The notes beneath the pieces were generated by a model. That model was not told where the DNA came from, ran no database searches, and saw nothing but the letters and a program-made list of their open reading frames with translations. A stretch of 64,000 nt of DNA from assembly GCF_008087625.1 (NCBI RefSeq), contig NZ_CP042997.1, forward strand, positions 9,424,001 to 9,488,000, written 5' to 3'. This document shows, piece by piece, positions 60,285 to 63,999 of this stretch (positions are counted from its first letter, which is position 1; every line of letters starts with the position of its first letter). The translations under genes and the position numbers were made by a program. Source of the stretch: Aquisphaera giovannonii (GTDB taxonomy: Bacteria; Planctomycetota; Planctomycetia; Isosphaerales; Isosphaeraceae).

Positions 60285-60725
60285 ATCCACTCCCGAAGGC
60301 GCGCTCTGGGCGGGGTCGAAACGTCCTGTCAAGGCGGGCAAAATATAACAAAAAGGCCACGCTCCGATCAATCAGCCGAGGGCCCGGCCCGGGCGCAGCG
60401 AGCGTCGGCCCGCGCGATTTATGGCCCGGAAATTCCGATCATTTCCGCCGGCGAGTTGGCGATTGGGCGCGGCCGCCCGGGTCCGTACGGACGCGTAATC
60501 CGCCCGACCGCGGCCCGATCGCCGGGGCGGCCCGCCGCACCGGCGCTCGCCTCGTCGGGGGCCGTGGGGAGTTCAAATCCGTATTGAACTTTCTCCCTCC
60601 TTCCCAGGATTCAAGTTCGAAATCCGCGCATTTTTTGTCATCGGGCCGCTGGCGAGCCCCCCTATAATGGCCAGCCACGTTGCGGTGAGGTCGCCTCAAG
60701 GGTGGACATCCGGGGGAACATGACG
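60285..60725. other. Divergent promoter region
   Basis: Both flanking genes are read outward from this 441-bp region. It is less GC-rich at 60580-60640 and contains an exact TATAAT at 60663-60668, facing the rightward gene, preceded by TTGTCA at 60635-60640. The 22-base spacer is too long for a standard promoter, so only the -10-like box is supported. Confidence 0.5.
60663..60668 (+). promoter_or_regulatory. -10-like TATAAT upstream of the large unrecognised gene
   Basis: A perfect TATAAT lies 58 bp before the start codon at 60726, in a genome where A/T-rich hexamers are rare. No well-spaced -35 accompanies it. Confidence 0.35.
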
Positions 60726-62414
60726 ATGAGCTATCTCGGCGTCCCGAGGTTGCATTTCGCGGGCACGTTCCTGGCCCGGCCGTCGACGATCAACAACGAC
60801 ATCGCCAACTACGACCCGACGACTTCACCCCTCGACCCGGGGTGGAATCCCGACGGCGATGCGCGCTGGGACCTGCTCGGCTGCCAGGTCACCGCCGCGT
60901 ACTACGCCGACGGGACTTCCGCCGCGTCCGCCTCGGCCGACCCGATCGTCGGCACGCCCTTGATCTCGATCAGCTCGCCCCCCGCGAAGATCGTCGACCT
61001 CGACCCCGACCAGCAGCTCGTCTCGGAGATCTGGGGCCTGAGGGTCAGGCTCGGCGGCCCGGCCTCCGGCTCGCTCGATGCCCGCTACCGCGTCGCCGCC
61101 TTCTGCGACCTCTGGCCCCGCGCCCAGCAGTCCACCGGCGACCAGCCGCTCGGGGCGTCCTACCAGTCGGCCCTGGAGGACATCGAGTGGCCCCAGGCGC
61201 CCGCGTCGCGGTTCCTCGCGGACCTTCACCGGGCGAGCCCCGACCTGCTCTCGATCAAGTTCAACCTCGATGGCATCAACCTGGACCAGGGGCCGACGCT
61301 CGGGCATGGCCGCGTCGTGGGCACCGTCGGGCCGGCCTCGGCGGACGAGCCGAAGCACTTCGTCCTCGGCCGGCTGCTCCGGCCCAGCCGCCAGCAGGGC
61401 AAGAACCAGCGATCGGCCTTCACGTTCGCCCAGGCCCGGGTCTGCACGGACCGGAAGAAGGTGATCGTGGACCTCGGCAACAGCCTGCCCACCACGACCC
61501 CGGGCGGCCCGATCGACGCGTCCCTCATCGGCGAGGTCGAGCTGGCGGTCGTCGACCAGGGCGGCCGGGCCACGACGCTCGGGCCGGTCCAGTACCAGGC
61601 CGACGACTGGTACACCTCGACGGCCGGCGTCCAGGAGTTCCCCGACGGCCGGACGCTGTCCGATGCCCAGCTCGCCGCGCTGGAGGGCGGCCGCCTGGCC
61701 CTGCTCCCGGCCGGGTCGGGCGGCGTGGGCCCGGCCTCCCGGCCCCCCCTGATCGAGAACGCGTCGTCCAGCGTCCTCCGGGCCGACCGATACGTCTATC
61801 GCCTCAACCCCGGCGACGAGGCCACGGTCGAGCTCTACCTGACGAAGGCCGGCAAGCCGTTGGCCGGCGAGACCATCGCCCTGGCCTATGCCCCGCAGCG
61901 CCTGCCGGCCGAGGAGACGGTCGGCACCCCCGAGAGCGCGCTGGCGTTCCCCACGCCGACGATCCCCGAGAAGACCGACGGGAACGGCCGAGTCCGCTTC
62001 ACGCTCAAGGCGGCCGACCCGGGCAACCCCCGCCAGTTCATCGACGGGCAGGTCTACGGGGTCGCATACTCGTGGCCGCAGGAGCAGCCGGGCCAGGCCC
62101 AGGCCGACCCCTCGCTGTTCGTCAGCGCGCTGGTCTGGGACGCGTTCACGTTCACGCCGCCCGCGACCTGGTGGGGCACCGTGCAGCCGATCCTCTCGCA
62201 ATACGCCCGCCTCTACCCCTTCATGATGCAGTTCGTGGACCTGGGCGACTACGGGAGCGTCGTGGCCAACCGGAGCCGGATCGAGCAGGTCATGAAGCTC
62301 GACCCGGAGCACCCGGGCTACATGCCGGTGACGCGCGACCTCTCGCGGGCCAAGCGCGACATGATCCTCGGCTGGTTCGCCGCCGGGGCGCCGGAGGGCA
62401 CCCCGCCGTCGTGA
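60726..62414 (+). CDS. Large unrecognised protein with VioB-like N-terminal segment
   Basis: I set the start at ATG 60726 (MSYLGVPRLHFAGTFLARPSTINNDIANYDPTT), with GGGGGA eight bases upstream; 562 residues. The opening LGVPRLHFAGTF...NND resembles the start of iminophenyl-pyruvate dimer synthase (VioB)-like proteins, though the remainder is not obviously that enzyme. The middle contains repeated beta segments (VTAAYYADG, GRVVGTVGPA, VIVDLGNSLPTTTPGGPIDASLIGEVELAVVDQGG) and an Ig-like stretch (RLNPGDEATVELYLTKAGKPLAGETIALAY ... DGNGRVRFTLKAADPG). The C-terminus is helical (WWGTVQPILSQYARLYPFMMQFVDLGDYGSVVANRSRIEQVMKL ... YMPVTRDLSRAKRDMILGWFAAG). No signal peptide is present. The function is unknown and the resemblance is tentative. 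Confidence 0.75.
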   Translation: MSYLGVPRLHFAGTFLARPSTINNDIANYDPTTSPLDPGWNPDGDARWDLLGCQVTAAYYADGTSAASASADPIVGTPLISISSPPAKIVDLDPDQQLVSEIWGLRVRLGGPASGSLDARYRVAAFCDLWPRAQQSTGDQPLGASYQSALEDIEWPQAPASRFLADLHRASPDLLSIKFNLDGINLDQGPTLGHGRVVGTVGPASADEPKHFVLGRLLRPSRQQGKNQRSAFTFAQARVCTDRKKVIVDLGNSLPTTTPGGPIDASLIGEVELAVVDQGGRATTLGPVQYQADDWYTSTAGVQEFPDGRTLSDAQLAALEGGRLALLPAGSGGVGPASRPPLIENASSSVLRADRYVYRLNPGDEATVELYLTKAGKPLAGETIALAYAPQRLPAEETVGTPESALAFPTPTIPEKTDGNGRVRFTLKAADPGNPRQFIDGQVYGVAYSWPQEQPGQAQADPSLFVSALVWDAFTFTPPATWWGTVQPILSQYARLYPFMMQFVDLGDYGSVVANRSRIEQVMKLDPEHPGYMPVTRDLSRAKRDMILGWFAAGAPEGTPPS

Positions 62415-63216: not shown

Positions 63217-63999
63217 TCAGCCGGCGAAGGCGGGCAGATGCGCCCGGATCAGGTCCCGGAGCTGCACGGCGAGCCGGTGGTGGGTTTCCTCGTCCTGGCC
63301 GCTGGGGTCGGGGATGTCGCCGCCGGCGTCGAGCCGGCGGATCTTCGCCGTCGCCTCGGGGAACCGGCCAACGAGCGCCAGGCGCTGGTCCTCGGTCATG
63401 CAGAAGACGGCCTCGGCCTGGGCGACGAGGTCGCGGGTGACCTCGCGCGTGACGTGGTCGTGTGGGACGAGTCCGAGGCGTTGCAGGGCCGCCCGCGAGG
63501 CCGGCGTGAAGCTCCGGCCGGGCGTCGTCGTCAGCCCGGCGCTGACCGCCTCGACCCGGCGGAACGCCCCGCCCCGCGACGCCAGGTCGAGGCGCCGCGC
63601 CAGCTCGTCGTTGCAGATCGCCTGGGCCATCGGCGACCGGCTGGTATTGCCGCCGCAGACGAACAGGACGATGCGACGCGGGGCCGCCATCACCGCCCGC
63701 CGCCTGGCCAGGAGCGTCGCGCCCATCAGGACCTCGAGGGCCGCGACGATCAGCACGACGCCGATCAGCTCGGACGTCGACGGCGGCCGTCGTCCGAGCA
63801 GGGAGCACAGCCCATACGAGGCGACGACCCCGGCGAGCAGGCTCGAGCAACGGTTCAGGGGGATGCAGAAGGTGTTCTCGCGGGCATCCAGGTAGATCCA
63901 GGTCCCGAACAGGTAGAGGCAGCCGTACAGCAGCCCGATGAGGACCGCCGGCACGACCGCGGGCGTGGCGAGGAAGACGGTGAAGCCCGCGCGCAACTC
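63217..63999 (-). CDS. Membrane domain fused to a low-molecular-weight protein tyrosine phosphatase (5' partial)
   Basis: The reading frame is open at the right edge of the window, so the N-terminus is missing; the TTG at 63996 is probably internal. The visible N-terminal part has about three transmembrane helices (FTVFLATPAVVPAVLIGLLYGCLYLFG, SLLAGVVASYGLCSLLG, TSELIGVVLIVAALEVLMGATLLARRR) resembling one half of an EamA/DMT-type transporter fold. The C-terminal 150 residues are a LMW phosphotyrosine phosphatase: VLFVCGGNTSRSPMAQAICNDEL with P-loop C-x5-R, and the general acid Asp in GGDIPDPSGQDEETHHRLAVQLRDLI. Phosphatases of this type dephosphorylate tyrosine kinases of polysaccharide export systems. 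Fusion to a multi-helix membrane domain is unusual. Confidence 0.82.
   Translation of the reverse strand, partial: ELRAGFTVFLATPAVVPAVLIGLLYGCLYLFGTWIYLDARENTFCIPLNRCSSLLAGVVASYGLCSLLGRRPPSTSELIGVVLIVAALEVLMGATLLARRRAVMAAPRRIVLFVCGGNTSRSPMAQAICNDELARRLDLASRGGAFRRVEAVSAGLTTTPGRSFTPASRAALQRLGLVPHDHVTREVTRDLVAQAEAVFCMTEDQRLALVGRFPEATAKIRRLDAGGDIPDPSGQDEETHHRLAVQLRDLIRAHLPAFAG

Follow-up and report, generated by a model that had tools for sequence, protein, structure and literature searches.

The mnxG operon of P. putida GB-1 consists, in the six-gene list of the published description, of mnxG, a YVTN propeller gene, two SCO1 genes, a gene whose substrate-binding product bears a cytochrome c domain, and SurA (PMC11409713). 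A DMT/EamA exporter, CntI, is described in a metallophore cluster of P. aeruginosa; its loss is reported to leave less pseudopaline outside the cell and more inside (PMC5719457). The arginine phosphatases YwlE and PtpB carry Thr at position 5 of the P-loop, where Thr is reported to favour phosphoarginine and Ile phosphotyrosine (PMC8001253). The DMT superfamily includes the triose-phosphate/phosphate translocator 5y78, SLC35B1 and LicB. The LMW-phosphatase fold is otherwise known as a soluble, mostly protein-directed enzyme. Here we describe a protein in which a predicted DMT-fold transporter domain and an LMW-phosphatase domain form one chain, often encoded beside a set of genes resembling the mnxG operon.

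The window, by which we mean the whole 64,000-nucleotide stretch of Aquisphaera giovannonii DNA that was analysed, ends inside the gene of this fusion. As the earlier note had supposed, the N-terminus lies beyond the window: the gene runs 707 nt further (residues 1-235), up to the start ATG at G000:C1:9488707 (L003:8708), and its stop is at window position 63217. The ORF list of the window and the adjoining sequence give a single 496-aa ORF, in which the transporter-like membrane domain (residues 1-340) is joined directly to the phosphatase domain, with an intact C-x5-R loop and acid Asp, just as that note had read it. An internal ATG at codon 340, with a purine-rich stretch ahead of it, lies directly before the phosphatase domain and might serve as the start of an additional free phosphatase. 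The fusion is genuine, rare and conserved; its parts are of known kinds and the combination is apparently new.

Table 1. Positions of the features discussed (bare numbers are positions in the window)
Feature	Position	Strand	Basis or remark
DMT-LMW-phosphatase fusion, C-terminal 260 residues (237-496)	63217..63999	-	ORF call
Part of the predicted DMT-fold membrane domain and linker, residues 237-344	63676..63999	-	Alignment; model of homologue L042
LMW phosphatase domain PF01451, residues 347-488	63244..63669	-	Pfam
P-loop C351-GGNTS-R357, Thr355 at position 5	63637..63657	-	Sequence, alignment
Acid loop D467-P-S-G	63298..63309	-	Sequence, alignment
Internal ATG at codon 340 and stretch ahead	63667-63690	-	
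NADPH-dependent FMN reductase PF03358	62597..63205	+	Neighbouring gene, convergent; G437, G594 and G715 have homologues near their fusions
570-aa protein, no assigned function	60702..62414	+	Homologue beside the Alphaproteobacteria MAG fusion (L042); cluster membership uncertain
AroDE-like protein	L003:8776-10350 = G000:C1:9488775-9490349	-	Adjoins the fusion; laid out like the plant-type DHQ dehydratase/shikimate dehydrogenase
Two small proteins (140 and 156 aa)	L003:10869-11754	+	No Pfam match; homologous pair in other clusters
Giant MnxG-like multicopper-oxidase protein, 2267 aa	L067:9118-15921 = G000:C1:9508117-9514920	-	Beside SCO1, beta-propeller and cytochrome c genes
TsaC (Sua5/YrdC)-LMWPc fusion, same genome	L004:7706-9070 = G000:C1:3952705-3954069		
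Dehydrogenase-like and monooxygenase-like genes near the cluster-less Acidobacteria fusion	L060:4691-8951		By eye

Full fusions are present in eight genomes, and the seven beyond the window's own belong to Bacteroidota, Acidobacteria and one Alphaproteobacteria MAG. Scanning genome contigs yielded four homologues over the full length, at 39-46% identity: L041 from a Bacteroidia MAG, L042 from an Alphaproteobacteria MAG, L043 from Aquimarina sediminis and L044 from an Acidobacteria MAG; two further fusions (L058, L059) come from the family of the Aquimarina genome and one (L060) from the phylum of G438, Acidobacteria. The fusion alignment contains these eight together with the unfused relative L061, which is 48% identical to the window's protein. 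All eight genomes have this junction within a single uninterrupted frame. This argues against chance, and on this ground we reject an assembly error or a frameshift, both of which the earlier note had named as grounds for refutation. The note's other proposed test, absence of the fusion from relatives, would have misled, because family and phylum relatives lack the fusion, yet three other phyla hold it. Indeed, the fusion is found in 1 of 45 genomes of the window's family; the other 44 matched only the phosphatase half, with no match beginning before residue 297. Across the phylum, the membrane half occurs in 6 of 392 genomes, of which one is the window's own; in the remaining five the phosphatase loop is absent from the frame, that is, the protein is unfused. 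Vertical planctomycete inheritance is thus not supported. At E 1e-60 or better, matches were obtained in at least 3 of 299 genomes from the family of the Aquimarina genome (Aquimarina itself included), in at least 3 of 297 of the phylum of G438 (including G438 itself and the unfused L061), in 1 of 22 and 1 of 15 of the orders of G435 and G436, and in at least 1 of 395 and at least 1 of 398 of their phyla, G435 and G436 themselves in each case; in the widest draws scoring was confined to the top 3 to 5 candidates of each genome, so these counts are lower bounds. The scattered occurrence points to horizontal transfer. That the fusion arose once is favoured by the phosphatase half: of the 43 rows gathered, 24 were used for a tree, which carries long-branch warnings, and in it the eight domains form one clade (support 98/96). 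The membrane half gives no such backing; its tree shows no single clade and rejects none: the fusions group together in 17% of bootstrap trees, and the one-clade topology has a p-AU of 0.309.

The membrane half was called EamA-like in the earlier note, a label that is valid at the level of fold only, because a Pfam match is absent and the homologue model has the DMT fold. In Pfam, LMWPc was the only match at E <=1 for the 260-aa part and <=0.1 for the whole protein; the membrane part has none, and the EamA profile PF00892 does not match the fusion protein. The structure was modelled for L042 (46% identity to the window's protein) from a 5-row alignment, with a mean pLDDT of 74.7 and a pTM of 0.58. 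In the fold search, this model matches 5y78 with Z 21.2 over 292 residues at 3.9 A, SLC35B1 with Z 19.2 and LicB with Z 18.4, which exceeds the level counted as common among helical bundles. The membrane half is thus predicted to have the DMT-superfamily fold with 10 helices, common to these proteins at Z 18.4-21.2 over 275-292 residues; unlike them, the window's protein has no Pfam EamA match and bears a fused phosphatase. With helix borders taken from the L042 model, the loops on the N-terminal side contain 13-21 Lys and Arg residues versus 1-5 on the opposite side in all eight fusions. On this bias the phosphatase domain is predicted to be cytoplasmic, with both the N- and C-terminal ends inside.

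Related membrane domains also occur as separate genes. In a plasmid search 16 records matched, none covering more than 80% of the query; seven matched the membrane half and nine the phosphatase half. The unfused DMT proteins on Croceicoccus and Novosphingobium plasmids are 36-39% identical to the fusion over the matched part and have no LMWP domain, and in both records inspected of the seven the gene adjoins a PF09587 (CapA-family) gene. CapA proteins resemble metallophosphoesterases, and this neighbour is a lead towards a second tie of this transporter group to phosphate chemistry. Around seven unfused relatives, tblastn found no cluster set and, beside the plasmid genes, no mnx cluster genes except one weak match in L069 to the acyl-CoA-dehydrogenase-like protein (ACAD) of the fusion loci; at L049 (G175), one of these relatives, not even the query was matched with the cut-off used.

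The gene context of the eight fusion loci was established by clustering of neighbouring ORFs, tblastn maps and Pfam. ACAD is present at seven of the eight loci, SsuD-like FMN monooxygenases (LLM) at six, the AroDE-like protein and the small proteins at five each, and FMN reductase at four. The beta-propeller and SCO1 are likewise found at five loci each, as is the cytochrome c protein with a binding-protein domain (partial in G435 and G438), and the MnxG-like oxidase at five (the window's own genome, G435, G437, G594 and G438); in 5/8 loci all four lie on the contig of the fusion. In G435, G437 and G594 the order is identical, namely MnxG, propeller, SCO1, cytochrome c protein, AroDE, small, small, ACAD, fusion, LLM, LLM, and in Aquimarina the 13 gaps from the propeller to FMN reductase measure -4 to 80 nt. 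The set is rearranged across 32 kb in the window's genome (G000:C1:9484702 to about 9516860). In G438 the run AroDE-small-small-ACAD-fusion-LLM is intact and the remainder lies elsewhere on the same 42-kb contig; G436, on a 20.3-kb contig, has ACAD and the 570-aa family and no MnxG; G715 is a short contig of 9.2 kb. In G811 (L060) the fusion stands with no other cluster gene within 68.5 kb. Near it, genes were noticed that by eye resemble a dehydrogenase of the opine type and an FAD monooxygenase like ornithine hydroxylase.

The AroDE-like protein retains Lys305 and Asp341 of the dehydrogenase in all five members of alignment A5. None of the five has both the His and the Lys at what we take to be the catalytic positions of the dehydratase, which were carried over to A5 by eye, by way of the alignment between 2gpt and the L041 protein; a functioning dehydratase is therefore doubtful. 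A homologue of the small proteins is modelled as an avidin/FABP-like beta-barrel; avidin comes closest in fold, at E 3.2e-3, and the calycin-like label is weak because no fold match reaches 1e-3 or better. An MptE-like protein, scoring 29.2 bits against a Pfam cut-off of 34.6, occurs at three of the eight loci. Considering the three kinds of flavin enzymes, the AroDE-like dehydrogenase with its degenerate dehydratase half and the small barrels, the cluster appears to be biosynthetic rather than catabolic. The earlier note had suggested that the fusion may tie dephosphorylation to membrane transport or polysaccharide export and had proposed a look at the adjoining sequence for kinase or polysaccharide genes. 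Coupling to transport is the reading we favour below. Polysaccharide export found no support: a GT4 glycosyltransferase of the cluster is present at four of the eight loci, all Bacteroidota, and glycosyltransferases vary between loci and lie outside the common core. No kinase for a phosphorylated precursor was recognised in the cluster, the MptE-like protein being under its Pfam cut-off. A literature search, with subscription journals and preprints outside its coverage, found, among the papers listed, no description of the fusion or of the linked biosynthetic genes.

The giant protein of the window's genome is labelled MnxG-like because it matches MnxG (9bxa) at E 3.6e-92 in phmmer and because of copper-site motifs in proteins of this kind; HCHFYPH and HDHxGPSTH are present in all four proteins read of the five MnxG-like proteins. 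In Pfam it falls just below the multicopper-oxidase cut-off (20.2 versus 21 bits). MnxG-like sequences of planctomycetes have already been described (PMC3600357). Compared with P. putida GB-1, all genes of the six-gene list but SurA have counterparts here and make up one half of the fusion's cluster; the list, in its published form, is without AroDE, flavin monooxygenases and the DMT-LMWP fusion (PMC11409713). The fusion cluster may have a role in Mn oxidation.

The anatomy of the fusion, the fold of the homologue, the topology signal, the single clade of phosphatase domains and the gene context are established, and on them we propose a model in which we infer the substrate, the direction, and the order of dephosphorylation and export. 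The cluster would combine an mnxG-type periplasmic multicopper-oxidase set with a cytoplasmic pathway made up of the AroDE-like dehydrogenase, the two small beta-barrel proteins, the ACAD-like flavoprotein, two SsuD-like FMN monooxygenases and, in some loci, FMN reductase. This pathway would make a small molecule, perhaps metal-binding or redox-active, that is held phosphorylated in the cell. At the mouth of the transporter the phosphatase domain, on the cytoplasmic face, would strip the phosphate, and the DMT domain, of about 10 helices, would carry the dephosphorylated product out to the periplasm, the compartment in which the oxidase would act. CntI provides a precedent, as a DMT exporter encoded among metallophore genes (PMC5719457). 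The unfused relatives (L061, the five phylum genomes and the plasmids) and the cluster-less G811 are points against the model, as are the missing MnxG on the G436 contig, the replaced general-acid Asp of the four Bacteroidota fusions and the membrane-half tree, which does not group the fusions. Since no kinase is recognised in the cluster, we hold it tentatively, with a probability of roughly 0.4.

The phosphatase half offers a different reading. It matches PF01451 at E 1.7e-16 (61.2 bits versus a cut-off of 23.2), and among solved structures the nearest in sequence are 2cwd (2.5e-10) and YwlE (5e-10), with which the fold matches concur. The earlier description of a tyrosine phosphatase was right as to the fold; tyrosine specificity is doubtful, as Thr, and in no case Ile, occupies position 5 of the P-loop in all eight fusions. 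With YwlE and PtpB (the latter from PMC8001253), the window's protein shares the fold, this Thr and an Asp-Pro acid loop. It is possible, though on the whole unlikely, that the domain is a regulatory or protein-directed switch of the arginine-phosphatase kind, which would act on phosphoproteins or sense redox and gate the transporter, leaving the cargo untouched. Cys436, present in 8/8 fusions and in 0/35 of the other domains compared, is a possible redox partner for such a switch. However, the Thr, although it is the residue of YwlE-type enzymes, is weakly telling, because it is also present in 33 of the 35 comparison domains (29/29 longer, TsaC-type rows and 4/6 shorter ones) and so marks the branch more than the function; it may be mere inheritance. 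The loss of the acid Asp in half of the fusions also fits poorly with any conserved catalytic switch. In contrast to YwlE, a single-domain protein in the solved entries, the fusion domain is the tail of a transporter; furthermore, Ser or Gly precedes the P-loop Arg in 6/8 fusions, and Cys436 is particular to the fusions within the compared set. The 29 comparison rows were called TsaC by the position of the loop within the frame; the domain is confirmed for the protein of the window's genome and annotated as such for L077. In this confirmed case a C-terminal LMWPc domain with the same Thr P-loop is joined to a threonylcarbamoyl-AMP synthase domain (PF01300), and it falls outside the clade of the DMT fusions; akin matches occur in 44 other genomes of the family, most of them in frames long enough for the TsaC fusion.

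An importer or exchanger is likewise an unlikely alternative to the export model, slightly behind the switch. Here a phosphorylated substrate would enter, as in the triose-phosphate/phosphate translocators, and be dephosphorylated inside by the domain, for which the predicted cytoplasmic position is suitable. The best solved match of the membrane half, 5y78, is a phosphate/triose-phosphate exchanger, and LicB, which also matches, is an importer; but the DMT fold is common to importers and exporters, so that fold rank tells little, and the apparently biosynthetic rather than catabolic character of the cluster speaks against import.

A further alternative, to which we give slightly less credence still, is that the phosphatase domain serves chiefly in structure or assembly and its catalysis is dispensable, ancestral activity being left in some lineages only. 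The general-acid Asp is retained in four of the eight fusions (D467 of the window's protein, L042, L044 and L060), and in the Bacteroidota members L041, L043, L058 and L059 it is replaced by N, I, V and V; thus, catalysis in these four is unsure, and unfused transporters of the same group do exist. Against this, the nucleophile Cys and the P-loop Arg are kept in 8/8, the four Bacteroidota included, and in these four a His directly after the Pro of the acid loop might stand in for the missing Asp. Finally, a thiol redox enzyme like ArsC, acting on arsenate or similar and fused to a transporter that exports what it has reduced, is very improbable: the fold group is the same, an NCBIfam arsenate reductase matches at E 0.0092 over residues 344-379 only, and Cys436 would be the second invariant Cys beside C351, but that match is far under its cut-off (16.3 versus 215 bits) and of the three redox cysteines of the thioredoxin-coupled arsenate reductase the third, seven residues past Cys436, is not found in the alignment, so that this identity was rejected.

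Returning to the export model, a wider reading is conceivable, though we regard it as doubtful: the clusters could be a class of biosynthetic island, undescribed and spread over several phyla, that pairs an mnxG-type operon with a flavin-monooxygenase pathway. The molecule of such an island, for example a metal ligand or a redox mediator, would be a partner of the oxidase outside the cytoplasm and would be uncaged during export by the fused phosphatase. The context of the fusion is unusual and apparently undescribed. A rare fusion that recurs in distant bacteria, often in a common cluster with a manganese-oxidase-like operon, suggests an undescribed pathway for making and exporting a small molecule. 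The fusion would be a case of an LMW-phosphatase domain built permanently into a transporter of small molecules. If an mnxG-type operon is linked to its own exporter and to conserved genes for a cytoplasmic biosynthesis, this would offer a testable handle: once the molecule is found, one can ask how the oxidase uses it.
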